Assembly: GCF_036194065.1 (NCBI RefSeq)
Contig: NZ_CP108095.1
Coordinates: 3,782,001 to 3,846,000, forward strand
From: Streptomyces sp. NBC_00239
GTDB taxonomy: Bacteria > Actinomycetota > Actinomycetes > Streptomycetales > Streptomycetaceae
Direction of reading: 5' to 3'
DNA: 64,000 nt
Below, piece by piece: positions 4,810 through 64,000 of this stretch. The translations under genes were made by a program, and so were the position numbers. The notes beneath the pieces were generated by a model. That model saw only the letters and a program-made list of their open reading frames with translations. It ran no database searches and was not told where the DNA came from. How positions within the stretch are numbered: the stretch's first letter is position 1; every line of letters starts with the position of its first letter.

Positions 4810-4821
4810 GACACTGGCGCC

Positions 4822-5031: not shown

Positions 5032-5044
5032 CGCGGCATGGCGG

Positions 5045-5072
5045 CGGCCGGCACCCGGGTGGGCGCCGGCCG
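5045..5072. terminator. Terminator hairpin between convergent genes
   Basis: The inverted repeat CGGCCGGC...GCCGGCCG, with an additional inner pairing ACCC/GGGT, lies in the 53-bp gap between the small Cys-rich gene and the convergent cyclophilin gene. Confidence 0.5.
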
Positions 5073-5084
5073 TCCGCCGGGGGA

Positions 5085-10519: not shown

Positions 10520-10537
10520 CGCGCGCGGGGCGGCCGG

Positions 10538-50424: not shown

Positions 50425-50949
50425 CTACTCCTTCGGGCCCTTCAGGTCCTTCAGATCCTTCAGATCCTTCAGATCCTTCAGATCCTTCAGATCCTTCAGC
50501 CCGTGGAAGTAGATGTGGTACGGGTCGCGCTCGAACCCCTCGGCCTCGTACAGGCCCTGCGCGACGTGATTGTCGTACCCGGTTTCCAGCTGGACCCCGG
50601 CCACGCCCTCGGCCCGGGCCCGCTCCAGCACGTCCCGCAGCAGCGCCCGCCCCGCCCCGGTCCGCCGCCCGCCGGGCGCCACGAACAGGTCGCTGAGCAC
50701 CCACACCGGCGCCATCGACAGCGACGAGAACGTCCGGTACACCTGCGCGAACCCGACGGCCTCCCCCGCACCGTCCTCGGCCAGCAGGATCAACGACTCC
50801 CCGTTCCGGACCCGCTCCTCCAGGTACGCCCGCGGCCGCTCCTCATCGACGACCTCGACCTCGTAGAAGTCGAGATACCCCCGAAACAGCTCACCCACAG
50901 CCCCCAACTCCGCAACCCCGGCCACCCGCACAGCCACCCCACCACTCAC
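50425..50949 (-). CDS. GNAT N-acetyltransferase with LKD repeat tail
   Basis: A 174-residue acetyltransferase. The acetyl-CoA motif A is VLSDLFVAPGGRRTGAGRAL, with the following helix LLRDVLERARAEGVAGVQLE and motif B AQGLYEAEGFERDPYHIYFH. The domain is complete by about residue 150. After it come six LKD units and LKGPKE, encoded by a 9-bp tandem repeat. The GTG start at 50949 has GGAGAGG upstream. Substrate unknown. Confidence 0.9.
   Translation of the reverse strand: MSGGVAVRVAGVAELGAVGELFRGYLDFYEVEVVDEERPRAYLEERVRNGESLILLAEDGAGEAVGFAQVYRTFSSLSMAPVWVLSDLFVAPGGRRTGAGRALLRDVLERARAEGVAGVQLETGYDNHVAQGLYEAEGFERDPYHIYFHGLKDLKDLKDLKDLKDLKDLKGPKE
50441..50499. repeat. 9-bp tandem repeat inside the GNAT gene
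   Basis: TTCAGATCC (first unit TTCAGGTCC) is repeated six times from 50441, plus a partial TTCAG. In the gene's frame it codes for a Leu-Lys-Asp repeat. A slippage-prone sequence in a GC-rich chromosome. Confidence 0.9.
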
Positions 50950-51204
50950 AACAAAACCTCTCCTTCACCCCAACACCACATGCCAACTCCCCCTATCTTC
51001 CTGCACCCCGGGAATCGGTGACGGGTGGTCATCGCGCCGGGCCGGCGATCACTCTTCGCAGTGGACTGCTCCCGGGGACAGCACCCCGAGCAGACGAGCA
51101 GGAGTTCCGATCAACAGACACCCTCGGCAAGGCGTGCGTGCACCCAGGCAGCAACGCCGCTCGCCGGGCCAGCCGGTGCCACCACACCACGAAGTGAGCC
51201 ACAC

Positions 51205-51471
51205 GTGACCCCCCAGCCCGCCCCGGAAGACCGCGCCGCGAAAGCCGAGCGCCGGCGCACTGGCGTCGCCGCCTTCGCCACAGGCACCGCCGCATCCCTC
51301 GCCTGCTTCGCCTTCCTCCCCGGCCTCCCCCACGTCATCGACTGGGGCGCCGCCCTCGCCTCCCTCGCCACCGGCTGGCTGTCCCGCCGTGCCTGGCAGT
51401 CCCACATGACGAGGAAACACGCCATCGCAGCAGTCAGAGGGCATGAAAAAGCCCCAGGTCACGGCGAGTGA
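51205..51471 (+). CDS. Small membrane protein, unknown
   Basis: A possible 88-residue protein with a charged N-terminus (MTPQPAPEDRAAKAERRRTG) and two hydrophobic stretches (VAAFATGTAASLACFAFLPG; VIDWGAALASLATGWL). GTG 51205 follows GAAGTGAG. Its last codons lie in the terminator hairpin of the tRNA gene on the other strand, and it ends 18 bp before the tRNA core. It has no recognisable domain. It may be chromosomal or a relic of an earlier insertion at this tRNA. Confidence 0.5.
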   Translation: MTPQPAPEDRAAKAERRRTGVAAFATGTAASLACFAFLPGLPHVIDWGAALASLATGWLSRRAWQSHMTRKHAIAAVRGHEKAPGHGE

Positions 51472-51482
51472 GTCCTGGGGCT
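51446..51482 (-). terminator. Intrinsic terminator of the tRNA-Thr transcript
   Basis: The 9-bp stem AGCCCCAGG / CCTGGGGCT with a 15-nt loop is followed on the minus strand by TTTTTCATG. It lies 7 bp beyond the 3' end of the tRNA-Thr core, on the same strand. Confidence 0.8.
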
Positions 51483-51488
51483 GATCCG

Positions 51489-51530
51489 AGCCGCCTTCGG
51501 GATTCGAACCCGAGACCTACGCATTACGAG
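51489..51530 (-). other. Prophage left attachment core: 3' part of tRNA-Thr(CGT)
   Basis: On the minus strand the 42 bases fit tRNA-Thr positions 32-73 exactly: anticodon loop CTCGTAA (anticodon CGT), stem half TGCGT, variable loop AGGTC, T-arm TCGGG-TTCGAAT-CCCGA, acceptor half AGGCGGC and T73. The base-pairing partners (ACGCA, D-arm, GCCGCCT) are missing; the preceding minus-strand bases are CTGGGG. So this is a 3' tRNA copy created by site-specific integration, with the intact tRNA expected at the far right end of the element. The chromosome lies to the left, with the tRNA terminator intact. Confidence 0.85.
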
Positions 51531-51650
51531 CCCCAGACGCTTCCTGTCGGATAGGTTCACGGGGTGCCATCGTGGGGCGGTTTCCGCAGGTCAACGCGAT
51601 GTGATGGCACTTCCCCGTGCCAACCCGTGACAACCGGTTCAGAGCAGTTC

Positions 51651-51691
51651 GGGCACGCGATGGGCACGCATTGGGCACGCGGTGGGCACTC
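51651..51691. repeat. Four 11-bp phased repeats, candidate integrase arm sites
   Basis: GGGCACGC at 51651, 51662 and 51673 and GGGCACTC at 51684: exactly 11 bp apart, about one helical turn, 120 bp from the crossover core. This fits arm-type binding sites of a tyrosine recombinase. Confidence 0.65.
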
Positions 51692-51763
51692 AAAAAGGGG
51701 GCCCTGACCTGCGTAAACGGTGCACCTTCAAACCTCACGCTACACCGGGACCCTGACATGCAG

Positions 51764-51798
51764 AAGGGGCCGCACGGCTCGCGCCGCGCGGCCCCTTT
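51764..51798 (-). terminator. Terminator of the leftward repressor operon
   Basis: The 10-bp perfect stem AAGGGGCCGC / GCGGCCCCTT with a 14-nt loop, eight bases after the stop of the 51806 gene on the minus strand. Confidence 0.75.
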
Positions 51799-51805
51799 GC
51801 CGTCT

Positions 51806-52087
51806 TTACGCCCCGCCCGCTTCGGGACGCGGCGAACACTTCGAAGCTCGTTCCCGACCGCCACCGGTGGGGGGCAGGGCGTTCAGGACGGCCTCAAGGG
51901 CTATGGCCCCGGTGTCCGTGATGTGTCTGTCGTCGAGCAGGATGTCGCGCTTGTCAGCGGTGGCACGCCCTGCTGCGGGTGCTTCGTCGTCGAGTCGGGT
52001 ACGGCGGACGCGGTACAAGATGCCCCCCTCGTGGCATGGCCGAGTACCTTGCTCGAACATATGTCCGAGGCAAGGCTCGATCCACAT
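51806..52087 (-). CDS. Small prophage protein, unknown
   Basis: A 93-residue protein on the repressor strand, 30 bp after the repressor gene and directly before a terminator, so the two form the lysogeny operon. Residues 1-60 (MWIEPCLGHMFEQGTRPCHE, then GILYRVRRTRLDDEAP) have two Cys and two His near the N-terminus that could bind metal; the C-terminal half is helical (DTGAIALEAVLNALPP). No family is recognised. Position suggests a partner of the repressor or a superinfection-exclusion factor. Confidence 0.6.
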   Translation of the reverse strand: MWIEPCLGHMFEQGTRPCHEGGILYRVRRTRLDDEAPAAGRATADKRDILLDDRHITDTGAIALEAVLNALPPTGGGRERASKCSPRPEAGGA

Positions 52088-52116
52088 TAGCGCCCATATC
52101 GCCGCAGGTCACGCGA

Positions 52117-52551
52117 CTACGACGCTCCGTAAGACTCCTCAGCGATCGTGATCGTTGCATCTTCAAGATCAAGATTTTTGAGCGCCTCTTTAACCAACGG
52201 CAGATCCTCCGGCCGTGTTCCTGGCTGGTAGGCAACGACGATGGAAACCTTGGGTGTTGACATGCCGAGGATGTCGCCGGCCGTCAATCCGACCCACTCG
52301 GCCGCCGCCGCTTTCCGCACCTCGACGGGATCGAGCCCGGTCGCCGCCGCGACTGCGCCGACGATCCACTTGTCGTGCCGGTAGCTCTCGCCGTTCTTGA
52401 TCTTCGCGAGGGTTGTCCACTGGAGCTTCTTGCCCGTCTCGGGGTCGACTGCCCGCTCGGCCACGCTTCGCAGGGTCGCGCCCGGGACGGCGAGCACCTC
52501 GCGAACCATGTCGGTGAAGGGCGTCGAGCTCTCGCCGCCTATGGGGGACAC
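52117..52551 (-). CDS. Phage repressor-like helix-turn-helix protein
   Basis: A 144-residue protein. The N-terminal part is an HTH of XRE type (FTDMVREVLAVPGATLRSVA, TTLAKIKNGESYRHDKWIVG, AVAAATGLDPVEVRKAAAAE); the C-terminal part (STPKVSIVVAYQPGTRPED) may dimerise. It has no LexA-type peptidase, so induction would not be by self-cleavage. It starts at GTG 52551, with GGAGATGAG upstream, facing an early promoter across three operator-like repeats, one of them 14 bp from its own start. This is the layout of an immunity repressor. Confidence 0.75.
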   Translation of the reverse strand: MSPIGGESSTPFTDMVREVLAVPGATLRSVAERAVDPETGKKLQWTTLAKIKNGESYRHDKWIVGAVAAATGLDPVEVRKAAAAEWVGLTAGDILGMSTPKVSIVVAYQPGTRPEDLPLVKEALKNLDLEDATITIAEESYGAS

Positions 52552-52564
52552 GGGTTCTCATCTC

Positions 52565-52744
52565 CGTTCTTGTCGCAGAACGCGAACGATCTTATCTAAC
52601 CAGCCATTACCCCGGATTGCACACCCCGGAACTGCGTTGACGTGCAGATTCAGCCAAGACTAGGTTGTTCTTGTTCGAGAACAGCAACAGACAAACAGTC
52701 TGTACCGGGCAGCTTGTGCCCGTCGCCGTTCCTGTCCGAGAACA
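52565..52744. promoter_or_regulatory. Prophage immunity switch region with three operator copies
   Basis: Three inverted repeats of the form GTTCT-N6-AGAAC: 52565-52582 (CGTTCTTGTCGCAGAACG), 52666-52683 (TGTTCTTGTTCGAGAACA) and 52727-52744 (CGTTCCTGTCCGAGAACA, one mismatch). Shared centre TGT. Site 1 abuts the repressor start; site 2 begins at the -10 box of the early promoter; site 3 ends one base before the first early gene. No other gene lies in the gap. Confidence 0.75.
52637..52666 (+). promoter_or_regulatory. Prophage early rightward promoter
   Basis: TTGACG (52637-52642), 18-bp spacer, TAGGTT (52661-52666): a good sigma-70/HrdB-type promoter. Operator 2 overlaps its -10 and start point, so bound repressor would block it. 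Confidence 0.75.
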
Positions 52745-52745
52745 C

Positions 52746-53027
52746 ATGGGGGATCTTGTGTCTGTCGTCTTCACCGGGCCGCCGCCGCGCAGCCGGAACA
52801 CCAAGCACGCGCTGATCGCGACGGAGCTCGCCGACCGTCCGGGCGAGTGGGCGATCGTGCAGCGGCTCGCGTCGATCGCTCGGGCATCGTCGGCCGCGCA
52901 GGCCATCCGCAGCGGTCGACTGGCCGCTTACCCCGACGGCGCGTTCGAGGCGGTCGCCCGGTCTGTCGTTGAGCAGGGACGCGTCGAGCACCGGGTCTAC
53001 GCCCGCTTCGTCGGCGCCGAGCAGTGA
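52746..53027 (+). CDS. First early prophage protein, unknown
   Basis: A 93-residue protein with sequence MGDLVSVVFTGPPPRSRNTK, then IATELADRPGEWAIVQRLAS and EHRVYARFVGAEQ. ATG 52746 is one base after operator 3, so the RBS is inside or next to the operator, and repressor binding could also affect translation. It overlaps the methyltransferase start by GTGA. It has a basic N-terminus and a small mixed fold. No family is recognised; similar small proteins are found in other Streptomyces phages and integrative elements (from memory, not searched). Confidence 0.7.
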   Translation: MGDLVSVVFTGPPPRSRNTKHALIATELADRPGEWAIVQRLASIARASSAAQAIRSGRLAAYPDGAFEAVARSVVEQGRVEHRVYARFVGAEQ

Positions 53028-54100
53028 GTGCGGCCGGTCCGCGGATCGGCAGTCTCTGCTCGGGGTACGGCGGTCTCGACATGGCCGTGCAGCAGGTGTT
53101 CGGTGGCTCGGTCGCGTGGCACTCCGAGATCGACGAGAACGCCTCGGCGATCCTCGCGCATCACTGGCCCGAGGTGCCCAACGTCGGCGACCTGGCCGCC
53201 GTCGACTTCACCACGGTCGAGCCCGTCGATGCAGTCGTCGCCGGGTTCCCGTGCACCGACCTCTCGCTCGCCGGCCGCATGGCCGGTATCGCGCCCGGTA
53301 CCCAATCCGGTCTGTGGCTGCACGTCGCCCGCGCCCTTGAAGCCCTACGCCCCCGATTGGTGGTGATCGAAAATGTCCCGGGTCTCCTCTCGACGCACGC
53401 CCATAGCAACGTGGAACTTTGCCCGTGGTGTGTGGGAGACGGAAGCGATCAGCCTGCTTTGCGAGCACTCGGCGCCGTACTCGGCGACTTGGCCCGCCTC
53501 GGGTTCGATGCGACTTGGGCGTGCGTACGCGCTGAGGAGATCGGCGCTCCGCACATCCGACGACGCGTCTTCATCCTCGCCGTGCCTACCGACGCCGAGG
53601 GCGAGGGACTACCGGGGCCGGGGGTTCTCGGATGGGCTCGCGAACGTGGTGATGGAGTTGCTGCCGACGCCAGCAGCAGCGGACGGACACCGGGGCCCGG
53701 ACTACGCCCGCATGGGTCGTCCGGCCTCGGGGGGCGACGACTTGGTGACGAGAATTGCCAGGATGACCCCGCGACGGCCGTCGAGTGGGGAGAGTTCCGC
53801 CCCGCCATCGAGCGGTGGGAACGGCTCACCCGCCCCGCTCCCCGACCAACTGACGATCACGGACGGTTGAGCCCGAGATTCGTCGAGTGGCTCATGGGCC
53901 TACCCGACCACCACGTGACCGGCGTCCCGGGCCTCTCCCGGTCCGCACAACTGCGGGCGCTCGGCAACGGGGTCATCCCTTCGCAGGCGCCTGCCGGGCG
54001 ATCGGCGCCCGCCGCTACATCGTCGGCAACCGCTGCCCACTCCACACCCCCGCCGCCCTCGCTGGACACCCCGAGGCACCCGGCGTCACAACTCCCTTAA
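53024..54100 (+). CDS. DNA (cytosine-5-)-methyltransferase
   Basis: A 358-residue m5C methyltransferase. Motif I is IGSLCSGYGGLDMAVQQVFG; the catalytic Cys77 is in VVAGFPCTDLSLAG (motif IV); motif VI is VVIENVPG; motif VIII is EIGAPHIRRRVFILAV; motif IX region ends RALGNGVIPSQ. After that, the final helix normal for the family is replaced by a Pro/Ser/Thr-rich tail. No restriction enzyme is encoded next to it, so it is probably an orphan enzyme protecting phage DNA. GTG start overlaps the upstream stop. Confidence 0.92.
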   Translation: MSAAGPRIGSLCSGYGGLDMAVQQVFGGSVAWHSEIDENASAILAHHWPEVPNVGDLAAVDFTTVEPVDAVVAGFPCTDLSLAGRMAGIAPGTQSGLWLHVARALEALRPRLVVIENVPGLLSTHAHSNVELCPWCVGDGSDQPALRALGAVLGDLARLGFDATWACVRAEEIGAPHIRRRVFILAVPTDAEGEGLPGPGVLGWARERGDGVAADASSSGRTPGPGLRPHGSSGLGGRRLGDENCQDDPATAVEWGEFRPAIERWERLTRPAPRPTDDHGRLSPRFVEWLMGLPDHHVTGVPGLSRSAQLRALGNGVIPSQAPAGRSAPAATSSATAAHSTPPPPSLDTPRHPASQLP

Positions 54101-54112
54101 GGAGACGTTCCC

Positions 54113-54928
54113 TTGAGCCTCGCCGCGACGGATTGGGTATGGACCCGGTCCCGCGCCCGAGGCGCCGCTCGTCTGGTCCTGCTCGCCGTAGCTGACCGCG
54201 CCGGCGCCGACGGCGTCGCCTACGCCGGTACGGCCGCGCTCATGCAGCGGACCCGGGCCGCCCGCTCCACCGTCCGCCACGCGGTCGACGCCCTGCTCGC
54301 CTCGGGTGAGCTCGCCGTCGTCGAGGGCCGGATCGGGCCCGGCGGGGAGACGGTCTACCGTCTGCCGCTCCTCGATGAGAGGCGGGCCGAGGACCGGCCC
54401 GGACCGGATTTCGACCCGGGCCGGGAATCGGCCCCCGGGGGGCCGGTGAGCGGCCCCGGGGAGGGCCGGACATCGGCCCCGGGGGGACCGGCCACCGGCC
54501 CGGGGGAGGGCCGCAGATCGGCCCCCCGGGGGCCGGATACCGGCCCCCAGAACGTACTTCCTACTTACTCACCACAAGAGCAGCAGCCGCGCGTGAGCTC
54601 GGCGGCTCTGATCCCTGAATTGCGCCCGCTCGACGACGCCCTCGCCGCGGCCTCGATCACCGTTCGGTGGTCGCTCGGACTCGGGGAACAGCGCGACGTC
54701 TACCGGCTGACGCAGCAGCACGGCGTCGAGGCCCTGGTCGACCTCGCCGCCCGCCGCACCGTCCCGGGCGAGGCCCCGAAAGCGGCCCGCTACTGGCTCA
54801 AGGTCTGGTCCGACCTCGACCGTCCGTCGAGCACCCCGTCGAGGGCGACGTCGTCGACCGCCGCCTACGCCGACAACTTGGCCGCCGGCCTCGCCCTGCT
54901 CAACGCACAGAAGGAGCGCACCCCATGA
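54113..54928 (+). CDS. Helix-turn-helix early protein, possible replication initiator
   Basis: A 271-residue protein with a winged-helix domain near the N-terminus (WVWTRSRARGAARLVLLAVA, AALMQRTRAARSTVRHAVDA, LLASGELAVVEGRIGPGGET). A Gly/Pro-rich linker with three GPGEGR-type repeats (about 100-145) follows, then a helical C-terminus (AAYADNLAAGLALLNAQKER). The layout recalls phage DnaA/O-type replication proteins. The start is TTG 54113 with AAGGAG upstream. The linker's nucleotide repeat could slip and change length. Confidence 0.72.
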   Translation: MSLAATDWVWTRSRARGAARLVLLAVADRAGADGVAYAGTAALMQRTRAARSTVRHAVDALLASGELAVVEGRIGPGGETVYRLPLLDERRAEDRPGPDFDPGRESAPGGPVSGPGEGRTSAPGGPATGPGEGRRSAPRGPDTGPQNVLPTYSPQEQQPRVSSAALIPELRPLDDALAAASITVRWSLGLGEQRDVYRLTQQHGVEALVDLAARRTVPGEAPKAARYWLKVWSDLDRPSSTPSRATSSTAAYADNLAAGLALLNAQKERTP

Positions 54929-55746
54929 ACGAGCAGCAGATCGCCGCCTTGCTCGCGTTCGCCGGAACGCTCGACTCCCGGGTGCGCCGCGCCCTCGCCG
55001 ACCCTCAGCAGTCCGCCCGCACCATCTCGGAGTGGACCGCCGCCGTCGCCGACGTTCCCGCCACGATGCCCGACGTCGGATGGGATGCCGCCCGCGCCAC
55101 CCGCCGGTACTACGAGCAGCAGGGCGGCAACCGCTCGTCGCAGTACCGGCCGATCGAGCCGCACGACCTGCTCGCCGCGTGGGGGCCGCTTCGGGCCGAG
55201 CTCATGGCCCGCCACACCGACCCCGTGCCGAACGTCGACCCGGACAACGTCGCCGCATGGCGCGAGGAACTGGTCGGAACCCGAGCCGCGGTTGCCGTCG
55301 GACACATCCCGCCCGCGCAGTACCGGGCCGAGATCAACGACGCGGGGCAGAAACGTCTCGCCGCGCTCATGTCCGGGGTCGGCGCCGGGCCTCGCCGGTA
55401 CCTGCCCGCGCACGTTGCGGCCGAGCTGCGCCCGTTCCGGAAGGCCCGCGCCCACCGCGAGCAGCTCGTCGCCGAGGGCATCCCCGACCCGCTCGGGGTG
55501 AAGTGCCCCTACTGCCTCGCCGCCATCGACGAGCAGTGCCGGAGCAGCTTCCGCAACAGGGGCAAGGGCCGGCGCCCGTTGACCGGCGTCCACCCCTCCC
55601 GCGTCGATGCGCTGGTCGCTCACCTCGGGGTCGACGAGCAGGGCGAGGCCGAGCAGATCAGGCTCGCCCGGATCATGTGCCAACCGCCCGCACCTCGACG
55701 GGATGGCCGAGCTCGGCACACCAGCGGCGGGGGCGGCGACCGATGA
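54925..55746 (+). CDS. Early prophage zinc-finger protein
   Basis: A 273-residue protein. The N-terminal two thirds are helical (QIAALLAFAGTLDSRVRRAL, ISEWTAAVADVPATMP, VAAWREELVGTRAAVAVGHI). Near the C-terminus, GVKCPYCLAAIDEQCRSS and the following GVHPSRVDAL form a zinc finger known from actinobacterial phage proteins. ATG 54925 overlaps the upstream TGA. Function unknown; DNA or RNA binding is plausible. Confidence 0.8.
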   Translation: MNEQQIAALLAFAGTLDSRVRRALADPQQSARTISEWTAAVADVPATMPDVGWDAARATRRYYEQQGGNRSSQYRPIEPHDLLAAWGPLRAELMARHTDPVPNVDPDNVAAWREELVGTRAAVAVGHIPPAQYRAEINDAGQKRLAALMSGVGAGPRRYLPAHVAAELRPFRKARAHREQLVAEGIPDPLGVKCPYCLAAIDEQCRSSFRNRGKGRRPLTGVHPSRVDALVAHLGVDEQGEAEQIRLARIMCQPPAPRRDGRARHTSGGGGDR

Positions 55747-56033
55747 TCCCCGCCGCCGCCCGAGCCGTGATCGCCGCGCACCTGACCGACGAGCTCGACG
55801 TGCAGCCGCACCTCGCGACCGCCGTCGTCGCCGCACTCGCCGACCGCCTCGCCATCGAGGGATGGCACATGACCGACCAATTCCCACTGTTTCGAGGTGC
55901 TCACGATGTCCATCAACAGCACCTCGAAGGCGCGCGACCGGTCGCGCCTCGCGCGCGGGAGATCCCGCGCGCTCGGCGCTCCCTCGACCGGCTGCTCGGC
56001 CGTGCCCGAACGAACGAGGGGAAGACCCCATGA
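55743..56033 (+). CDS. Small early prophage protein, unknown
   Basis: A 96-residue protein starting at ATG 55743 in an ATGA overlap with the gene before it. It reads MIPAAARAVIAAHLTDELDV, then LATAVVAALADRLAIEGW and a basic Arg-rich tail (PRAREIPRARRSLDRLLGRA). Helical and without known domain. The coding call rests on the overlap chain and protein-like composition. Confidence 0.68.
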   Translation: MIPAAARAVIAAHLTDELDVQPHLATAVVAALADRLAIEGWHMTDQFPLFRGAHDVHQQHLEGARPVAPRAREIPRARRSLDRLLGRARTNEGKTP

Positions 56034-56215
56034 GTTCGGTCCTGCTCGCCCTCGCCGTCGTGCTCGCCCTCGCGCTCGGCGCGTCCCTGGCCTACATGGT
56101 CCGGATCGACGACCGCCTCGACCGCGAGCTACGCCGCCTCGGCCGCACCCCCTGCTCGACCACCTGCACCGCCTGCTCGACGACCCGCCGAGCCGAGAAC
56201 GGAGAGACCCGATGA
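56030..56215 (+). CDS. Small early prophage membrane protein
   Basis: A 61-residue protein starting at ATG 56030 (overlap with the preceding stop). One membrane helix (VLLALAVVLALALGASLAYM), then a positively charged part with three Cys (PCSTTCTACSTT). The layout resembles phage single-pass membrane proteins. Position in the early operon argues against a holin. Function unknown. Confidence 0.65.
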   Translation: MSSVLLALAVVLALALGASLAYMVRIDDRLDRELRRLGRTPCSTTCTACSTTRRAENGETR

Positions 56216-56547
56216 ACGACACCACCCGAACCCGGTCCCGGCGAGGCCGGACCGCCGCCCGAGAGGGCGTGCGCGAGCAGCGGCGCGCGGCGCTGCGGCT
56301 GCTGCTCGCCCGCGCTGACCGAGGCGCTCTTACCCCGGGGGACGCGACCCAACTCCGCGACCTGGCCGAGGCCGAGATCGCCGAGGGCGACCGCTTCCGG
56401 CAGTCCGCCGGCGGGCAGCAGACGGCGGCGCTCAAGCTGCGCCACCGCATCGACGCCGCCGAGCAGGCCATGCAGGAGATCGAGGCCGAGCGCGACCAGT
56501 ACGCCGCCGAGGTCGAGGCGCTGCGCACCATCAAGGGGGACCAGTGA
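56212..56547 (+). CDS. Coiled-coil early prophage protein
   Basis: A 111-residue, highly charged helical protein. Basic N-terminus (MNDTTRTRSRRGRTAAREGV), then heptad-like helix ADRGALTPGDATQLRDLAEA and AEQAMQEIEAERDQYAAEVE. ATG 56212 overlaps the stop before it. No domain is recognised; coiled-coil oligomer likely. Confidence 0.7.
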   Translation: MNDTTRTRSRRGRTAAREGVREQRRAALRLLLARADRGALTPGDATQLRDLAEAEIAEGDRFRQSAGGQQTAALKLRHRIDAAEQAMQEIEAERDQYAAEVEALRTIKGDQ

Positions 56548-57320
56548 GTTACGCACAGGCTGTGGGTGAGACCGTGCGCGCCCTGCGGGTGGTCCGGGGC
56601 CGGTGGGCCGACCTGCTGCTCGCGATCGAGACACCGCCGGCGGATCACTGGCCGCCTCGGCAGCTCGCGCACACCATGCGCGACGACGACGAGCTGCTCG
56701 TCGAGGACCGGGCGCCGCTCGTGCTGCGCGAGCACCCCGCCCCGCTCAACCTCGGCGCGCTAGACGCCGGGCGGGCGGTCGAGCGCCTGATCTTCGATCT
56801 CGCCGACACGCTCGCCGCCGCCGTCCAGCGCACCGAGCAGGGCGACCCCCGGGCGTGGCTGAGCGCGGACCCGGGCGCACCCGACAACCACCGCGCGGCG
56901 GGCAGCAGGCGGCACGGGCTGCACTTCGCGTGCGTGTGGGTCGAGGGCCGGGTGCTCGACGAGGACACCGCCCCCGAGGCCGAGCTCGACGGGGCGATCA
57001 GCGCCCCGCCGTACGAGGTGCTGCCGCTCTACCTGCTGCACGAAGCGCGACGTACCGCGCGGATCGCCGAGGCCCGGGTGCTGCGCGCCCTCGGCCTCGA
57101 CCGGCGCGAGACTCCCCTGCCCGAGCCGTGCCCGTGGTGCGAGGGCGAGCTCACCCTGCACAGCACCCCCGACGGGCCGCCGAGCGTCACCTGCTCGGGC
57201 GCGCGCGAATGCTCGGCGCCCGTCCCCCTCGACAGCGGGGAGCAGGTGCGGGTGTGGGAGTGGGGCGACCTCCCCGAGCTGATCGCCGCGCTCGGCGTGG
57301 ACATCGCCGCCGCGGCGTAG
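56544..57320 (+). CDS. Early prophage protein with zinc ribbon
   Basis: A 258-residue protein, last of the coupled early genes. The N-terminal 170 residues are helical (AVGETVRALRVVRGRWADLL, LEHPAPL-type turns, DTLAAAVQRTEQGDPRAWLS). A C-terminal zinc ribbon has CPWCEGELTLHSTPDGPPSV and CSGARECSAPVPL. It ends six bases before the operon terminator. GTG 56544 overlaps the previous stop. Function unknown; the ribbon suggests nucleic-acid or protein binding. Confidence 0.8.
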   Translation: MSYAQAVGETVRALRVVRGRWADLLLAIETPPADHWPPRQLAHTMRDDDELLVEDRAPLVLREHPAPLNLGALDAGRAVERLIFDLADTLAAAVQRTEQGDPRAWLSADPGAPDNHRAAGSRRHGLHFACVWVEGRVLDEDTAPEAELDGAISAPPYEVLPLYLLHEARRTARIAEARVLRALGLDRRETPLPEPCPWCEGELTLHSTPDGPPSVTCSGARECSAPVPLDSGEQVRVWEWGDLPELIAALGVDIAAAA

Positions 57321-57325
57321 GGGTA

Positions 57326-57354
57326 GGTGGGGGCCGGTTCTCCCGGCCCCCACC
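57326..57354 (+). terminator. Terminator of the prophage early operon
   Basis: A perfect 12-bp stem GGTGGGGGCCGG / CCGGCCCCCACC with a 5-nt loop, six bases after the stop of the last early gene. Confidence 0.8.
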
Positions 57355-57455
57355 ATCACGACTTGATAACACCGCACGCAAACCAACCCCACCGGCCTCC
57401 AGTTGGCGCGACAGTTCACCACATAGCGGGATCTCTTGACCCTGCTCGGCCTCAT

Positions 57456-57478
57456 TTTACTTAGTTTAGCTAAGTAAA
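57456..57478. promoter_or_regulatory. AT-rich palindrome, candidate late-control operator
   Basis: TTTACTTAG - TTTAG - CTAAGTAAA is a perfect 9-bp inverted repeat in a pocket of AT-rich DNA (57450-57485) within a GC-rich region. TTGACC (57436-57441) lies just upstream and could be the -35 of a promoter the palindrome overlaps. The pattern resembles MarR-type operators. Confidence 0.6.
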
Positions 57479-57525
57479 TATTTAGGCTTGTACTCGCGCT
57501 GAACTTCTGGAAGGACGAATTACTG

Positions 57526-57666
57526 ATGAAGAACTATTGGGGGCGGGTAATTCGCGAGGCGCTCCAAAGCGGCGACGGCACATTGCGGCTCGTCTTCCTG
57601 CTGGGCTTCACCGCGGCATCGGCCGCGGCGCTAATGTTCGCGGCCCGCGTCGTCGGGCTCCTGTAG
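57526..57666 (+). CDS. Small hydrophobic prophage protein (46 aa)
   Basis: A 46-residue protein, too short for usual gene callers. ATG 57526 has AAGGAC 10 bp upstream. It begins MKNYWGRVIREALQSGDGTL, followed by one membrane helix (VFLLGFTAASAAALMFAARV). Located between the AT-rich palindrome and the late promoter, alone. The charged head and single helix suit a membrane regulator or antiholin-like function, but this is a guess. Confidence 0.6.
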   Translation: MKNYWGRVIREALQSGDGTLRLVFLLGFTAASAAALMFAARVVGLL

Positions 57667-57704
57667 CCGGAGCTCGGCGGGATCATGCATCACCTGCACT
57701 GAGG

Positions 57705-57734
57705 TTGCATTGTTATCTGTTCGTGACCTAGTGT
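57705..57734 (+). promoter_or_regulatory. Candidate prophage late promoter
   Basis: TTGCAT (57705-57710), 18-bp spacer, TAGTGT (57729-57734), about 100 bp upstream of terS. A GC hairpin (57778-57809) in the leader precedes the terS ribosome site. Confidence 0.6.
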
Positions 57735-57833
57735 GGGGAGCGCCTCCGGCGTGCCCGGAACCCAAACGCTGCACTCACGCCCTGCCACCATCCCCCCGGT
57801 GGCGGGGCGTTGGCATGTCCGGGAGGTGATCCC

Positions 57834-58277
57834 GTGGCCGAACCGATCACGGACGCCGACCGCGAGGCGGTCCGCCGACTGCACTCCGAGGGCAGGTCCC
57901 GCAACGCCATCGCCCGAGAGACCGGGCGCAGCGCCGCCACCGTCTCGAAGATCGCCGCCGAGCAGGGCCTCGCGTTCAGCGGCGGGGCGCGGGTGGCTGC
58001 TGCCACGCAAGCCCGTACGGCCGACGCCGTCACCCGGCGCGAGCGCCTCGCCGACGACGCGCTCGACGGCGCTCTTGCTCAGATCGAGCGGGTCGTCGAG
58101 GCCGAGTCCGCCAGGGACGCACGCGACTACGCGACGGCCGCACGCGCGCTCACCGAGGTACACGCCAAGGTCGCCGAGCTCGCCCGCCACACCAGCGGCG
58201 GCAGCGCCGGCGGGATGCTCGACCGCCTCGCCGACGCCCTGCTCGGGCCGCCGGGCGGTGACACCGACGGGGGGTGA
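57834..58277 (+). CDS. Terminase small subunit
   Basis: A 147-residue protein. The N-terminus carries a homeodomain-like HTH (DADREAVRRLHSEGRSRNAI, then ARETGRSAATVSKIAAEQGL) that would recognise the packaging site; a helical C-terminus follows (AARALTEVHAKVAELARHTS). It directly precedes TerL and overlaps it by GTGA. GTG 57834 is chosen because GGGAGGTGA lies just upstream. The assignment as TerS is by context plus HTH. Confidence 0.82.
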   Translation: MAEPITDADREAVRRLHSEGRSRNAIARETGRSAATVSKIAAEQGLAFSGGARVAAATQARTADAVTRRERLADDALDGALAQIERVVEAESARDARDYATAARALTEVHAKVAELARHTSGGSAGGMLDRLADALLGPPGGDTDGG

Positions 58278-59506
58278 TCCCCTCGGACGGCCACCTCTCC
58301 AACAAGCAACTCGCCTCTCTCCGCGAGTCAGTCGCCCGCATCAACGTGTGGCACGGCTCGGTCAGGTCCGGGAAGACGATCGCGAGCCTGCTCCGCTTCC
58401 TGTTCGCGGTGCGGCGCGCTCCGGCGTCGGGCCTGATCCTGATCGTCGGCCGGTCGCTCGCCACCATCGAGCGGAACGTGATCGAGCCGCTTCAAGACCC
58501 CCTGCTCTTCACCGACACCGCCGCCGAGGTCCACCACACTCGCGGCGCGACCACGGCCGTGATCCTCGGCAGGGTTGTCCACCTGATCGGCGCGAGCGAC
58601 GCCCGGTCCGAGGGCAGGCTGCGCGGCCTGACCGCGTCCGTCGCCTACGCCGACGAGATCACGCTGCTGCCCGAACCGTTCTTCGTGCAGCTCCTCGCCC
58701 GACTGTCCGTCCCCGGGGCGATCCTGCTCGGGACCACGAACCCGGACGGGCCCCGGCACTGGCTCAAAGCTCAGTACCTCGACCGGCAGCACGAACTCGA
58801 TCTTCGCTCCTGGCACTTCCAACTCGCCGACAATCCCGCGCTCTCCCCCGAGTACGTCGCCGCCCTGGCCGCTGAGTACACCGGCCTTTGGCGACGCCGG
58901 ATGATCCTCGGCGAGTGGTGCGTCGCCGAGGGCGCCATCTACGACGCGTACGACGAGCAGCGGCACGTCGTCGACACCTTGCCCGCGATGCGCCGGTACT
59001 GGTCCGGCGTGGACTACGGGACGAGCAATCCGTTCTCGATGGTCCTGCTCGGACTCGGCGAGGACGGGCGCCTGTACGCGGTGGGCGAGTGGCGCCACGA
59101 TGCCCGCGCCGCGCGCCGGCAGATGACCGACGCCGCGTACAGCCGCGCCGTCCGCGACTGGCTCGTCGCGCAGGACGTACACCCCGAGTGGACATTCATC
59201 GACCCCTCGGCCGCGAGCTTCTCCACGCAGCTTTGGGCCGACGGGTACACGGGCGTCGCCCGCGCGAACAATGCCGTGGGCGACGGCATCCGCAGCGTGG
59301 CGAACCTGCTCGACTCCGGCCGCCTGCTCATCCATCGCTCGTGCGAGGGGCTGCTCGCCGAGTTCCCCTCGTACGTATGGGACGACGCCGCCGCGGCGCA
59401 TGGCGAGGACCGGCCGGTTAAGGCGTCCGACCACAGCCTCGACGCGCTGCGGTACGCCGTGCACAGCACCGCGCACGAATGGCGCGGCCTGCTCGCCCCC
59501 GCTTGA
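58274..59506 (+). CDS. Terminase large subunit
   Basis: A 410-residue packaging motor. Walker A is GSVRSGKT (28-35), Walker B VAYADE (123-128), and the coupling motif LLGTTNPDG follows. The nuclease domain has D247 in WSGVDYGTSNPF, ATP-independent metal residues near WTFIDPSA, and the final Asp in KASDHSLDALRYAV. All catalytic landmarks are intact, so packaging should be functional. It is coupled to TerS by GTGA. Confidence 0.95.
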   Translation: MIPSDGHLSNKQLASLRESVARINVWHGSVRSGKTIASLLRFLFAVRRAPASGLILIVGRSLATIERNVIEPLQDPLLFTDTAAEVHHTRGATTAVILGRVVHLIGASDARSEGRLRGLTASVAYADEITLLPEPFFVQLLARLSVPGAILLGTTNPDGPRHWLKAQYLDRQHELDLRSWHFQLADNPALSPEYVAALAAEYTGLWRRRMILGEWCVAEGAIYDAYDEQRHVVDTLPAMRRYWSGVDYGTSNPFSMVLLGLGEDGRLYAVGEWRHDARAARRQMTDAAYSRAVRDWLVAQDVHPEWTFIDPSAASFSTQLWADGYTGVARANNAVGDGIRSVANLLDSGRLLIHRSCEGLLAEFPSYVWDDAAAAHGEDRPVKASDHSLDALRYAVHSTAHEWRGLLAPA

Positions 59507-59570
59507 TCCCCTCCCCCGCTCCGAGGCGCCGCGCCGTGCCTCGGGCCTGACGTGTCGAGGGGGTGGTCGC

Positions 59571-60002
59571 GTGCAAACGTTGACCGATCGGTTCCTCGCC
59601 AAGGTCGCCCCGGGGCCCCTCGGGTGCTGGGACTGGACCGGGCACGTGAAGCCCAACGGATACGGCCAAGTGAAGGTGGACGGTCGCCCCGCCTACGTCC
59701 ATCGGGTCGCCTACGAACTGACCCGGGGACCGATCCCCGACGGGCTCGTGATCGACCACCTGTGCCGACGCCGTCATTGCGTGAACCCCGACCACCTCGA
59801 ACCGGTCACCCACCGGATCAACATCCGGCGCGGGGTGAGCCCCGCCGCGCGGCGCGCTCATCAGACGCACTGCGGCCGTCGCCACATCTTCGACAACGCG
59901 AACACGTACACCGCCCCCAACGGCACCCGGCACTGCCGCCGTTGCGCAGCAGGACGTGCCCGCACACGACGACGTCGGGAGGTGAGCCGTGCCTCTGCCT
60001 GA
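59571..60002 (+). CDS. HNH endonuclease
   Basis: A 143-residue HNH nuclease. The N-terminal half resembles an AP2/HNH_3-type DNA-binding segment (GCWDWTGHVKPNGYGQVKVD, then YVHRVAYELTRGPIP); the HNH core is VIDHLCRRRHCVNPDHLEPV; a C-terminal zinc finger has THCGRRHIF and RHCRRCAAGR. GTG start with GAGGGGGTGG upstream. Its place between terL and portal matches HNH proteins that help terminase cut cos ends. The portal gene overlaps its end by 14 bp. Confidence 0.9.
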   Translation: MQTLTDRFLAKVAPGPLGCWDWTGHVKPNGYGQVKVDGRPAYVHRVAYELTRGPIPDGLVIDHLCRRRHCVNPDHLEPVTHRINIRRGVSPAARRAHQTHCGRRHIFDNANTYTAPNGTRHCRRCAAGRARTRRRREVSRASA

Positions 60003-61467
60003 GAACGGCGCCCCCTGGCCGCCGCCCGCCCTCGCCCGCCCGTACCAGCAGATCAGGATCGACGACGCTTGGTACAGCGGTCAGCACGAACGGCTCGCCG
60101 CCGTCTACCGGACCAGTGCGACCCGGCGGGACGGGCGCCGCCGGCTGTGGGGGCGCGACCGCGACCAGCAGCAGGCCATGTCCGATCAGCGCCTGCACAT
60201 ACCCCTGCCCGGTGACATCGCTGGCGCGAGTGCTGATCTCCTGTTCGCCGAGCCGCCCGTGCTCAGCGTCTCCGACCCGGTCACGCAGGACCGCCTCGAC
60301 GAGCTCGCCGAGTCCGACGGCATCGCGAACGCGCTGCTTGAGGCGGCCGAGGTATGCGCCGCGCTCGGCGGCGTCTATCTCCGGATCACGTGGGACCGTT
60401 CGCTAGCCGATCGCCCGTTGCTCACCAGCGTGCACCCGGACAGCGCGGTTCCTGAGATGCGGTGGGGGCGTTTGTCGGCCGTGACGTTCTGGCACGAGCT
60501 CACCTCGACCTCGGCGACCGTGTGGCGCCACCTCGAACGGCACTCCCCGGGATGGATCGAGCACGCCCTCTACGAGGGATCACCCGACAGCCTCGGTACC
60601 CGGGTCCCGCTCACCGAGCACCCCGAGGTCGCCGACCTGGCCGCCTCTCTCGGCCCCGAGGGCGACGCCCTGCCGACCGGGATCGACCGGCTCACCGCCG
60701 CCTACATCCCCAACATCCGCCCGGACCGCGCCAACCGGGGCAGCATCTTCGGCCGCTCCGATTTCGGCGCTCCCTTGTACGACTTGTTCGACGCCCTCGA
60801 CACGACATGGACGTCGTGGGTGCGCGACATCCGCCTCGCCCGAGCAAGGTTGCTCGTACCCGACGGCTACCTGCGCGACCACGGCCCCGGCCGCGGCGCG
60901 AGCTTCGACGACGACCGGGAAATCTGGACCCTGCTCAACATTCCGCCGACCGAGCAGAGCGGTGCGGGAATCACCTTGTCGCAGTTCGCGATCAGGGTCG
61001 ACGAGCACGAGCGCACCTCGGCCGCGACCACTCGGCAAGCCGTTCAGTCCGCTGGCTACAGTCTCGGCACATTCGGCCTCGACGATCAGGCCGCCGTGAC
61101 CGCGACCGAGATCCGGGCGCGCGACCGGCGGTCCATGACCACCCGCAAGAAGAAGATCCGCTATTGGTCGTCTGAACTCGCCGACATTCTGCACGCGATG
61201 CTCCTGCTCGACCGGGCGCTGTTCACTCCGCGCATCGCGCCGGAGCGGCCGACGGTCGCGTTCGGCCCGGTGGTCAGTGAGGACTCGGCCTCGCTCGCGC
61301 AGACCCTTTCGCTGCTCCAGCAGGCACAGGCCGTGTCCACGCTGACCAAGGTCCAGATGCTGCACCCCGATTGGGACTCGACCGCAGTACAGGAGGAGAC
61401 CGACCGCATCCTCACCGAGACCGGGGCCGCTGTACCGGACCCGATGCAGGCCGGGGCGTTGCTCTGA
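59989..61467 (+). CDS. Phage portal protein (SPP1 gp6-like)
   Basis: A 492-residue protein that forms the dodecameric DNA gate at the capsid vertex. Typical parts: N-terminal YQQIRIDDAWYSGQHERLAA, QRLHIPLPGDIAGASADLLF, a wing region with beta strands (TSVHPDSAVPEMRWGRLSAV), the IFGRSDFGAPLYDLFDALDT core and TATEIRARDRRSMTTRKKKI. Length fits SPP1-type portals. GTG start 59989 in an overlap with the HNH gene. Confidence 0.92.
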   Translation: MPLPENGAPWPPPALARPYQQIRIDDAWYSGQHERLAAVYRTSATRRDGRRRLWGRDRDQQQAMSDQRLHIPLPGDIAGASADLLFAEPPVLSVSDPVTQDRLDELAESDGIANALLEAAEVCAALGGVYLRITWDRSLADRPLLTSVHPDSAVPEMRWGRLSAVTFWHELTSTSATVWRHLERHSPGWIEHALYEGSPDSLGTRVPLTEHPEVADLAASLGPEGDALPTGIDRLTAAYIPNIRPDRANRGSIFGRSDFGAPLYDLFDALDTTWTSWVRDIRLARARLLVPDGYLRDHGPGRGASFDDDREIWTLLNIPPTEQSGAGITLSQFAIRVDEHERTSAATTRQAVQSAGYSLGTFGLDDQAAVTATEIRARDRRSMTTRKKKIRYWSSELADILHAMLLLDRALFTPRIAPERPTVAFGPVVSEDSASLAQTLSLLQQAQAVSTLTKVQMLHPDWDSTAVQEETDRILTETGAAVPDPMQAGALL

Positions 61468-61482
61468 CGCGAGGGGGTGCTC

Positions 61483-63735
61483 GTGCCCATCCATCCCGCG
61501 ATGGCCGAGGATCTCTCGGCGGCCGTCCGCGACCTGTACGCGGACGCCGAGACGCGCCTGCTCTCGCTCGTAGCGAGGCAGCTCGCCGACGGGTTCGAGG
61601 CGCCCGGGTGGGCGGTCGCGAAGCTCGCCGACATTCAGCCCCTGCGGCGCGCGGCTCAGGGGGTGGTCGACGCCCTCGGCTCGGCCACGCAGCTTGAGGT
61701 GTTCTCGGCGGTCACCGAGGCGTACGACGTTGGGGCGCGGGCCGGGCTCGCCGAGCTCGGCGCGCTGTCCGACGCCGACGGCCGGCGGATCGCCGAGCGC
61801 ACCCCGGGCACCCGGGCTGTGGACCGGCTCGCCGCCGAGACCGTCGATCTCGTGACGGCGACGCATCGCGGGATTCTCCGGGGCGTCGAAGACTCTTACC
61901 GGCAGATCATCAGTGAGGTTGCGGCGACGCCGCTGCTCGGGATCGACTCCCGCAGGCAGGCCACACAGCGCGCGATGGAGCGGTTCAGCGACGCCGGTCT
62001 GCGGACGTTCGTCGACCGCCGCGGCCGGTCGTGGCAGATGACGAGCTATGCGGAGATGGCCACCCGGACGGCGGTCGGCCGCGCCGCCGTCGAGGCGCAC
62101 GGCGACCGCCTGCGGGCCGCCGGTATCCGGCTGGTGATCGTGTCCAACGCGCCCCACAACTGCGAGCTTTGCGACCCCTTCGAGGGTCGGGTGCTCGCGC
62201 TCGACGGCCCGAGCGGCGCCCGAACGATCGAGGTGGAGCACGCCATCGAGGACGGGCGCACCGTGCGGGTGGACGTCGCCGGATCACTCGACGACGCCCG
62301 CCGCGCAGGGCTCCAGCACCCCAACTGTCGGCACTCCACCTCGGCGTTCCTGCCCGGGGTGACCCGGGCGCCGGTCGAGCACTCCGAGGACCCGGCGGGG
62401 TACGCCGCCTCACAGAGGCAGCGTGCGATCGAGCGGGCCATCAGGAAGTGGAAGAACCGCAGCGCCGCCGCCGTCACCCCCGAGGCCAAGCGCGCGGCCG
62501 AGGCCCGGGTGCGGCAGTACCAAGGCCGGATGCGCGAGCACCTGGCCGCGCACCCCGAGCTCATCCGCCGCCGTGAACGGGAAGCCCCGGGCGCCGGCAA
62601 CCTGCCGAACACCGCGCCGACCCCGCCGCACGACGCGGTGCAGGCGGCGCGCGTGCGGGCGGGCGACGACCGCACGCTGCCCGAGATGCGCGACGAGCAG
62701 CTCGGCGCCGCGCTGCGCCCGGGTGTGCTGGACGAACGCGACCGCGACCGGATCGCCGCCGAGGCGGACCGCCGCGACGAGCAGGCCCTGCTCGACCGGG
62801 TCCGCCCCGGTGGTCGCATGGTCGACAGCCTCGCCGAGTTCTCCGACGACGAGCTCGCCCGCATGGCGCTGCACCTCGACGACGAGGGGATGCTGCGGGT
62901 GATGGCCGAGGCCGACCGGCGCGACCTCGACGCCACTATGCCCTCGATCCGGACCGACCTGCTCGGCATGTCCGAGCGGGACCTCGCCACCCGTGCCCGC
63001 CATGTCCCCGAGGACCGGCCGGCGATCGGCGCCGAGGTCCACCGCCGCCGGATGCTCGGCGCCCTCTTTCCCGGCGGGCGCCTCGCCGCCGACCTGTCCG
63101 CGCTCGGCGACGACCTGCTCGTGTGGGGCACGCGTTACGCGAGCCCCGAGGACTCGATACGGATCGCCGCCGAGATCGACCGTCGGTACCCGCCCGTCCC
63201 ACCGCCGCCCCCGGCGGGGGCGAGCGCCACGGCCACGATCACGGCGCACGATGCCCTCGACGCCGCCATGCACCCGATGCGCCTCGACGACCCGCCCCCG
63301 GCCGACCCCGACGAATGGGGGCCGTACGGGGCCGACATCGAGCGCGGCCCGGACGGCACCGAGCACATGTCCACCGCCGAGCGATGGGTCTACGAGCGCG
63401 AGCTCGAAGCGAGGGCGTCGCGCGAGGCGTACAGCCGCGACGAGATCCGGTCCATGTACGACGAGCACATCTACGTGCAGTGGCTCGCCGCCGAGGACGC
63501 GACCCGGGGTCACATGCTCAACCGCCGCGCCGAGGCCGCCGACGTCGACCCGCGAACGCTGTTCACCGGGCCCGCTCACGTGGCCTACGCCCGAGCGTCC
63601 GAGGACCTGATCAGGTTTTGGGAGGACGTCCCCAGGGTGACGCTCGCCGAGTTCACCGAGCAGGTGACCGGCGTCCGCAACGGCGCGGGCGCCACCGCCC
63701 GCAGCGCACGCGACAACCAGCGCAACAAGCAGTGA
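61483..63735 (+). CDS. Minor capsid protein with repeat domain
   Basis: A 750-residue protein. Residues 1-300 follow the phage minor capsid 2 / Mu-F-like pattern (SYAEMATRTAVGRAAVEAHG, SNAPHNCELCDPFEGRV, GLQHPNCRHSTSAFLPG), involved in head-tail joining or DNA ejection. The second half holds four helical repeats of about 33-40 residues, each with a DDEL-like start and an AEADRR-like end (about 62680-63190), and a Pro-rich hinge (VPPPPPAG). GTG 61483 chosen (GAGGGGG upstream); GTG 61477 possible. The repeat domain is not recognised. Confidence 0.88.
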   Translation: MPIHPAMAEDLSAAVRDLYADAETRLLSLVARQLADGFEAPGWAVAKLADIQPLRRAAQGVVDALGSATQLEVFSAVTEAYDVGARAGLAELGALSDADGRRIAERTPGTRAVDRLAAETVDLVTATHRGILRGVEDSYRQIISEVAATPLLGIDSRRQATQRAMERFSDAGLRTFVDRRGRSWQMTSYAEMATRTAVGRAAVEAHGDRLRAAGIRLVIVSNAPHNCELCDPFEGRVLALDGPSGARTIEVEHAIEDGRTVRVDVAGSLDDARRAGLQHPNCRHSTSAFLPGVTRAPVEHSEDPAGYAASQRQRAIERAIRKWKNRSAAAVTPEAKRAAEARVRQYQGRMREHLAAHPELIRRREREAPGAGNLPNTAPTPPHDAVQAARVRAGDDRTLPEMRDEQLGAALRPGVLDERDRDRIAAEADRRDEQALLDRVRPGGRMVDSLAEFSDDELARMALHLDDEGMLRVMAEADRRDLDATMPSIRTDLLGMSERDLATRARHVPEDRPAIGAEVHRRRMLGALFPGGRLAADLSALGDDLLVWGTRYASPEDSIRIAAEIDRRYPPVPPPPPAGASATATITAHDALDAAMHPMRLDDPPPADPDEWGPYGADIERGPDGTEHMSTAERWVYERELEARASREAYSRDEIRSMYDEHIYVQWLAAEDATRGHMLNRRAEAADVDPRTLFTGPAHVAYARASEDLIRFWEDVPRVTLAEFTEQVTGVRNGAGATARSARDNQRNKQ

Positions 63736-63747
63736 GGGGGTGATCGC

Positions 63748-63903
63748 TTGGCCTTCCGTGAGGACGCCGTGCGCGCCCGCGCGGACGGGCTCGCCGCCGC
63801 GCGGGCCGGACATCCGGTGACCCGATGCCCCCGCTTCACCGACCCCCGGCTCACCGCCGCTTGGGTCCGTGGCTACGCCGCCGCCGTCCGGCCCGCGCCG
63901 TAG
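63748..63903 (+). CDS. Rmf/CrpP-like small protein (51 aa)
   Basis: A 51-residue protein starting with TTG 63748, with GAGGGGGTGA upstream, 12 bp after the minor capsid gene. It begins MAFREDAVRARADGLAAARA, then HPVTRCPRFTDPRLTAAWVR and GYAAAVR. The pattern G-x2-A-x3-G-x5-CP-x6-R-x3-W-x2-GY is that of ribosome modulation factor and CrpP-like small proteins. A strong terminator follows, so it ends a late transcript segment. Function inferred from pattern only. Confidence 0.7.
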   Translation: MAFREDAVRARADGLAAARAGHPVTRCPRFTDPRLTAAWVRGYAAAVRPAP

Positions 63904-63917
63904 CCCCTCCCTTCTGT

Positions 63918-63944
63918 AGGGCCGCCGATCCGGTGGCCCTTTTT
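63918..63944 (+). terminator. Intrinsic terminator in the prophage late region
   Basis: The stem AGGGCCGCC / GGTGGCCCT (one G-U pair) with a 5-nt loop and a TTTTTC run; 15 bp after the Rmf-like gene. A rare true T-run terminator here. Confidence 0.85.
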
Positions 63945-63978
63945 CATGCCCGCACGAGCCCCGGAGGGCCGCACCGCC

Positions 63979-64000
63979 ATGCCCGAGAACACCGCCGATC
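63979..64000 (+). CDS. Next late gene, N-terminal fragment
   Basis: Only seven codons are in view (MPENTAD...), with GGAGGGCC upstream. By position after the minor capsid gene it should be the scaffold or head-maturation protein; that is a prediction from phage gene order. Confidence 0.5.

Follow-up and report, generated by a model that had tools for sequence, protein, structure and literature searches.

We analysed a 64,000-nucleotide stretch of the 9.3-Mb genome of Streptomyces sp. NBC_00239 (contig NZ_CP108095.1, positions 3,782,001 to 3,846,000; hereafter the window). The gap between a putative repressor gene and divergent early genes carries three copies of an inverted repeat, designated O1, O2 and O3 (Table 1). 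This is very probably the lysogeny (immunity) control region of a ~38 kb prophage in a tRNA-Thr gene, with one repressor and three operators, and this high confidence applies to the whole switch reading taken together. An earlier reading of the window, made from its letters alone (the sequence-only reading), had already proposed an immunity switch at this place, and had named prophages with the same repressor but without the motif as the finding that would speak against it. Comparison supports the proposal well, and related prophages retain three sites. The operator itself differs from the one first drawn: as defined by comparison of related loci, it is an 18-bp dyad, TGT-N12-ACA, centred 6 bp to the right of the first two sites as originally placed.

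The unit originally proposed was GTTCT-N6-AGAAC in three copies. Two are exact (52566-52581 and 52667-52682), compared with 0.01 exact copies expected in the window, and none of 100 shuffles of the window contained two. The third (52728-52743) starts with GTTCC, which is one mismatch. A pattern derived from these three sites themselves, GTTCYTGTYSNAGAAC, had 20 matches in the genome at no more than one mismatch, and the three exact ones were the gap sites. Reading of the sequence also bore out the 194-bp length of the divergent gap and the early promoter (TTGACG-18-TAGGTT).

For comparison, 23 related control regions were used, with the repressor in view in 22 (L099 was cut off by a contig end; L numbers are our own labels). 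These loci, whose named members were from Streptomyces, were picked by eye with no formal identity cut-off; the most alike pair, checked afterwards, was 89% identical from O1 to O3. We omitted near-duplicates (among them L023, L025, L026, L048, L049, L052, L054, L056, L069 and L073, plus repeat fetches of the same contigs), weak matches that did not have the layout (L079-L083), an early gene with a different control region (L097) and early-gene relatives with no divergent repressor in view (L102-L105). Kromp (L021) and L139 were reserved as tests, and L162 was found later. To select O2, positions 34-36 bp from TTGAC were compared for outer pairing in the new register and the best was taken. 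O3 was sought within 50-61 bp, where TGT/ACA ends earned a bonus, and O1 within 99-105 bp by the pattern [TC]GT-N12-AC[AG]. That pattern fits 1.1% of all positions in these regions, a figure that counts the true sites; the spacing counts below depend on these selection windows. In L078, O3 was set by hand at 65 bp.

A dyad scan of the 23 loci, anchored on TTGAC (lengths 10-30, offsets 10-110), was headed by an 18-bp dyad at +35 with 3.39 of 4 outer pairs, and the next separate dyad, with one base of jitter allowed, was also 18 bp, at +90. TGT and AC of O2 were invariant in 23/23 loci, as were GT and AC of O3, for which such ends had been favoured during selection. The +35 register was supported by covariation as well: at O2, 17 cells had changed on both sides, compared with 8.2 in shuffles (0/500 as high), and pairing was 75.2% versus 33-52% when the register was slid. 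When a matrix was built from O2 and O3 with the locus under test left out, 19 of the 22 loci had their best left-hand 18-mer at 100-102 bp, and this count did not change when the test was repeated with the corrected 18-mer of L078. Exceptions were L066 and L055, which favour the register first drawn, and L077, a near tie. O1 of the window scored 16.6, versus 5.0 for the earlier register (16.4 versus 4.1 with the corrected training site).

A second matrix, from which the window, L050, L051 and L078 had been left out, was used to scan the whole 64 kb. Top hits were at 52672 (25.8), 52666 (23.7), 59887 (17.2; surrounded by structural genes), 52571 (16.3) and 52727 (14.8). The next hits, at 29719, 2932 and 60977, scored 14.5-14.0, and the maximum in 20 first-order Markov sequences of equal length was 15.8. 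Thus, the gap cluster stands out, and these scores suggest that both O2 registers may be used in the window's own clade. Taken alone, without its conserved position, O3 is not significant by matrix score. At centre positions 8-11, O2 tends to GAAC and O3 to GTTC across the loci, so O3 is seemingly oriented opposite to O2.

The promoters were placed by conservation, that of the repressor only tentatively; a sigma-70 consensus scan of the gap gave no promoter and one weak terminator-like site. O2 starts 5-6 bp past the TANNNT box in 23/23 loci. The sequence-only reading had put its second site on the -10 box. In its register the site does touch the last base of the box, but O2 in the conserved register begins 5 bp past it, near the expected transcription start. 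On the repressor side, a TTAGAT hexamer is present 5 bp from O1 in 14/22 loci, replaced by TTCAAT, TTATAT or TTGAAT in five and by other letters in three. Conserved sites were found beside both promoters in related prophages, one of these promoters being tentative. Spacing was also fixed: O1 and O2 are 100-102 bp apart in 21/22 loci (105 in L077), and O2 and O3 54-56 bp apart in 22/23 (65 in L078, about one helical turn longer). Of the two centre-to-centre distances originally given for the window, 101 bp holds, whereas the other, 61 bp, becomes 55 in the conserved register. Among 91 spacer pairs of equal length, 71 were less than 45% identical, while their O2 and O3 were 72% and 66% identical, respectively. 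That the distances stay fixed while the DNA between the sites has diverged suggests that bound repressors contact one another.

The layout recurred outside the defining set. L139, a Streptomyces nigrescens phage plasmid not used for the motif, had dyads spaced 55 and 100 bp, counted from 4/7 pairs, a threshold at which one more such 18-mer was present far off, at 5580. Kromp had three TGTCC-N8-GGACA dyads beside its repressor homologue and no other match in 58,268 bases. We also scanned viral contigs for TTGACG followed by O2 and O3, as bare TGT-N12-ACA, at set distances; O1 was not part of this pattern. The scan returned 32 stretches, including 17 with the repressor family, one truncated (L146, the contig of L099) and 14 without the family. 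O1 was present in 16/17 of the former and in 0/14 of the latter, and a control pattern with TGT and ACA exchanged gave 5 stretches, none of them with the repressor family. Confidence in the switch reading is very slightly lowered by the fact that 16 of the 17 family stretches had already been found by protein searches, which makes the scan less independent. The sole new family stretch, L162, had no O1 at 97-105 bp. Among remote homologue loci (L111-L135), only 3 of 25 had TGT-N12-ACA dyads at 5/7 pairs or better (three in L122, two in L123 and one in L131), and the 18-bp frame is thus not shown for remote relatives. In L122 (1230-1377), the three palindromes in this frame (TGTTCATCTCGATGAACA and relatives) are upstream of the gene, 44 and 86 bp apart from start to start.

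The inner letters of the operator appear to follow the repressor. Recognition-helix segments WTTLAKI, YTTLHRI and HTTLPKI go with an O2 core of TGTTCG or TGTTGC, HTLLWKI with TGTTCA, HTTLWKI with TGTTCC, HN(T/S/V)LWKI with TGTCTC, HQTLWKI with TGTCGC and RDTLWKI (Kromp) with TGTCCG. HNQLPKI (L058 and L062), which occurs with TGTTCG, contradicts a simple one-residue rule. This joint change of helix and core is suggestive and involves few independent events.

The 144-aa product of the repressor gene is predicted to be an XRE-like repressor. Its AlphaFold model had a mean pLDDT of 77.0, and ClgR structures headed the Foldseek list. No Pfam or PHROG match was found for the protein up to E 1, and a sequence profile search of solved structures gave three matches, every one at E 0.47 or worse. 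Close homologues were present in L049 (94% identity), L050 (81%) and L051 (82%); distant homologues were 33-53% identical. In 392 sampled genomes of the genus Streptomyces, with up to 10 candidates scored per genome, 43 matched the family profile at E 0.001 and five, including the window's own, at E <1e-50; the close family is not common in Streptomyces. Among sequenced phages, homologues were found only in Kromp, and among plasmids in one; a search with the early gene gave further contigs with the same layout.

Table 1. Features of the control region and left prophage end in the window
Feature	Position	Strand	Remarks
Operator O1, TGTCGCAGAACGCGAACG	52571..52588	+	5 bp downstream of putative repressor -10; supported by matrix score and conserved position
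Operator O2, TGTTCGAGAACAGCAACA	52672..52689	+	strongest dyad scanned; covariation; near expected early transcription start
Overlapping second register at O2 (second site as first drawn), TGTTCTTGTTCGAGAACA	52666..52683	+	matrix score 23.7
Operator O3, CGTTCCTGTCCGAGAACA	52727..52744	+	expected 5' leader, directly before Shine-Dalgarno; 54-56 bp after O2
Early promoter -35, TTGACG	52637..52642	+	TTGAC in all 23 loci; alignment anchor
Early promoter -10, TAGGTT	52661..52666	+	TANNNT box conserved beside O2
Putative repressor -10 (TTAGAT on minus), tentative	52594..52599	-	hexamer conserved at fixed distance
First early gene, probable GTG start	52758..53027	+	Shine-Dalgarno GGGGGA; phrog_2660-like
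Putative repressor gene	52117..52551	-	144 aa, GTG start; predicted XRE-like helix-turn-helix (HTH), recognition helix about residues 45-52
attL core, 43 bp	51488..51530	.	identical to 3' part of intact tRNA-Thr(CGT) gene at other prophage end

The probable start of the first early gene is GTG 52758 and not the ATG at 52746 that had been assumed, since an extra G in L050 puts the ATG out of frame while the GGGGGATCTTGTG stretch is kept; the PHROG match was obtained with the protein form read from 52746. No Pfam match and no HTH family were found for this protein, and its model, of moderate confidence (pLDDT 72.8), has a helix-strand-helix-strand-strand order that is not of the five-helix kind. 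The HTH negatives and the model, which was used without a structure search, speak against a Cro-like first early gene; a Cro further downstream is possible.

The three sites, their family register and fixed spacing, their placement by the promoter boxes and their link with the repressor family are features of the compared sequences. From them we infer the protein's binding and dimer state, its repression of both promoters, any cooperativity or looping, and its identity as the immunity repressor. In the proposed mechanism, the XRE-like repressor would bind three dyads with a nearly fixed outer TGT/ACA and with inner bases that vary by repressor subgroup. At O2 it would block the early lytic promoter by covering its start, and at O1 it would cover the start of its own promoter and limit its own synthesis. 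The placement of O1 and O2 suggests such occlusion of both promoter starts, with a further block at O3, where a repressor bound 55 bp downstream in the early leader might form a roadblock or belong to an array held by contacts between bound repressors. A more specific version, which we put forward only tentatively, is a phase-locked array: one repressor assembly would bridge O1, O2 and O3 at fixed helical positions and, without Cro, would silence both promoters and stall polymerase in the early leader. The immunity type would change when the inner bases alone of the 18-bp frame are exchanged along with the recognition helix.

A different architecture, possible though doubtful, is that O1 and O2 in the window's clade are interleaved double operators, each occupied by two dimers 6 bp apart on opposite helix faces, with a single dimer at O3. 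O2 of the window does have half-sites at 6-bp steps (GTTC-N2-GTTC-N2-GAAC-N2-CAAC), and both of its registers score above 23. O2 of L058 holds GTTCCTGTTC-GT-GAACAGGAAC, a perfect palindrome with 10-bp arms. A scan of the O1 side across the loci was headed by a 22-bp GTTC-N14-GAAC dyad and ranked the first-drawn register above the 18-bp one. However, the left arm of that register at O2, which is the outer left half-site of a double operator, is kept only in the window, L049, L050, L051, L057, L058 and L099. The extra arm at O1 has a second possible cause of conservation: GTTCT there is part of AGAACGGAGATGA on the repressor mRNA, which resembles an extended Shine-Dalgarno and presumably matches the anti-Shine-Dalgarno.

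The operator exactly as first drawn, with GTTCT-N6-AGAAC in one register at three sites spaced 101 and 61 bp, is unlikely. If only the window is considered, this register is more symmetric and more self-consistent than the 18-bp one, and even with the outside matrix it scored 23.7 at O2, where its pairing across the loci was 59.0% compared with 54.2% in shuffles (10/500 as high). In the anchored scan, however, the same register (+29) had 2.0 of 4 outer pairs, and its covariation of 0.142 was reached by 73/500 shuffles, with 0.132-0.141 when slid by +1 to +3. Its third site, mismatched in the window, departs further in L050 and L051, and the left arm of its first site may be kept as the Shine-Dalgarno described above.

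The third site had also been suggested to block translation. In the 23 loci, as judged by eye, a Shine-Dalgarno-like stretch follows O3 within about 15 nucleotides, and folding of the L024 segment is somewhat better than that of its shuffles (z -2.07; 7/200 as good). On the other hand, the window leader folds no better than its shuffles (z -0.30), the same is true of L050 (z 0.24), and all 200 shuffles of the site 3 segment fold at least as well as the segment itself (z +2.41). With no Rfam match in 51400-53100 either, neither approach gave anything for the window, and a leader hairpin acting on the RNA of the first early gene is very improbable. The least credible reading takes the repeats for sites of a host factor, or for inherited repeats that have nothing to do with this repressor: O1 fits by eye, with two mismatches, the ClgR consensus WNNWMGCYNNNRGCGWWS given in the available part of PMC2905415, and the Foldseek result also points to ClgR, but operator letters change with the recognition-helix segment, O1 accompanies the repressor family and is absent from the 14 other pattern stretches, and the distances persist even where the spacers themselves have diverged.

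The surroundings of the switch are those of a temperate phage, with att repeats, a tRNA gene, an integrase and a repressor gene divergent from early genes. The att repeat was identified by blastn of window positions 51301-51900 against L137:18401-19200; the intact tRNA-Thr(CGT) gene is at L137:18708-18782, ~38 kb rightward, and beside it is a phage integrase (Pfam PF00589, E 3.7e-18). The putative repressor gene sits just within the left prophage end. Downstream of the switch, the part of the prophage inside the window contains methyltransferase, replication, terminase, portal and head genes. When 50900-64000 was compared with phages by megablast, a single match was obtained, 316 bases in the terminase. 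Several additional features were observed. Tandem direct repeats of GGGCACGC, perhaps integrase arm sites, are present near both prophage ends (window 51651-51692 and L137 ~18583-18620). A C5-cytosine methyltransferase is encoded in the early region (window 53024-54100), and another, with a Vsr mismatch endonuclease after it, near the right end (L137:8420-9739 and 9736-10539). Between the repressor gene and attL, a small open reading frame (51806-52087, minus strand) had no Pfam match; a similar protein occurs in L052 and L058 (GGILYRVxRTRLDD...DRHITDTGAIALE).

The sequence-only reading did not recognise the operator from known repressors, and this stands within the literature searched, where no description of it turned up; coverage of subscription papers was limited. 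In the available part of the Samy prophage paper (PMC11302927), a putative repressor is named and the word "operator" is absent, and the corresponding part of the Tubberson paper (PMC12243558) describes repressor/Cro synteny and no site. Few actinobacterial phages have their immunity control worked out. For the repressor family described here, which lacks matches in Pfam and PHROG, there are a predicted operator, a fixed geometry and ~20 natural operator/repressor pairs, a ready set for tests of homo- and heteroimmunity. The layout should also aid recognition of such prophages from sequence, and provides candidate repressor-promoter pairs for Streptomyces.

Lambdoid CI/Cro switches have tripartite operators with adjacent sites. 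The region described here resembles them in having early genes divergent from the repressor gene, three related operators, a predicted HTH repressor and operators beside both promoters. It had been called lambda-like, a description that our results do not support: the centres are ~101 and ~55 bp apart rather than a few bp, O3 is in the early leader, the first early protein was not recognised as Cro-like, and the 144-aa protein has no recognised C-terminal domain of the protease type. In Staphylococcus phage phi11 (PMC3991615; this and the following papers are represented by their available parts), three homologous operators also lie between divergent genes, but both of these encode repressors, compared with one recognised repressor here. 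Mycobacteriophage BPs (PMC4557955) shares with our region a short repressor (gp33), divergent Prep and PR promoters, an operator at PR and another downstream of Prep near the repressor gene, and palindromes within larger operator sites. Its gap holds two operators, with more sites elsewhere in the genome, and its immunity needs integration via an attachment site in the repressor gene. In contrast, the attL core in the window ends at 51530, ~590 bp from the repressor stop at 52117. In the actinobacterial phages phiC31 and L5 (PMC4557955), repressor sites also occur away from promoters, with 18-30 sites per genome, whereas one cluster of three stands out here: the window and 60 kb spanning the prophage contained the gap sites and a few single hits of 11-17, and Kromp contained three matches to its own pattern.

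A further related system is that of Streptomyces phage Kromp (MH744420), in which gp37, a homologue of the putative repressor (40.6% identity over 70% of the query), lies beside three 18-bp TGT-N12-ACA dyads. Its core is TGTCC and its dyads are spaced 144 and 281 bp, and the record names gp38, not gp37, as the immunity repressor. In this region (4387-5291), gp37 is the divergent gene on the integrase side, and the dyads are placed around gp37/gp38. Our comparison suggests that gp37 rather than gp38 is the lysogeny repressor; gp38 may be a Cro-like gene. Overall, the system would act like other phage repressor-operator switches, as a variant of them.
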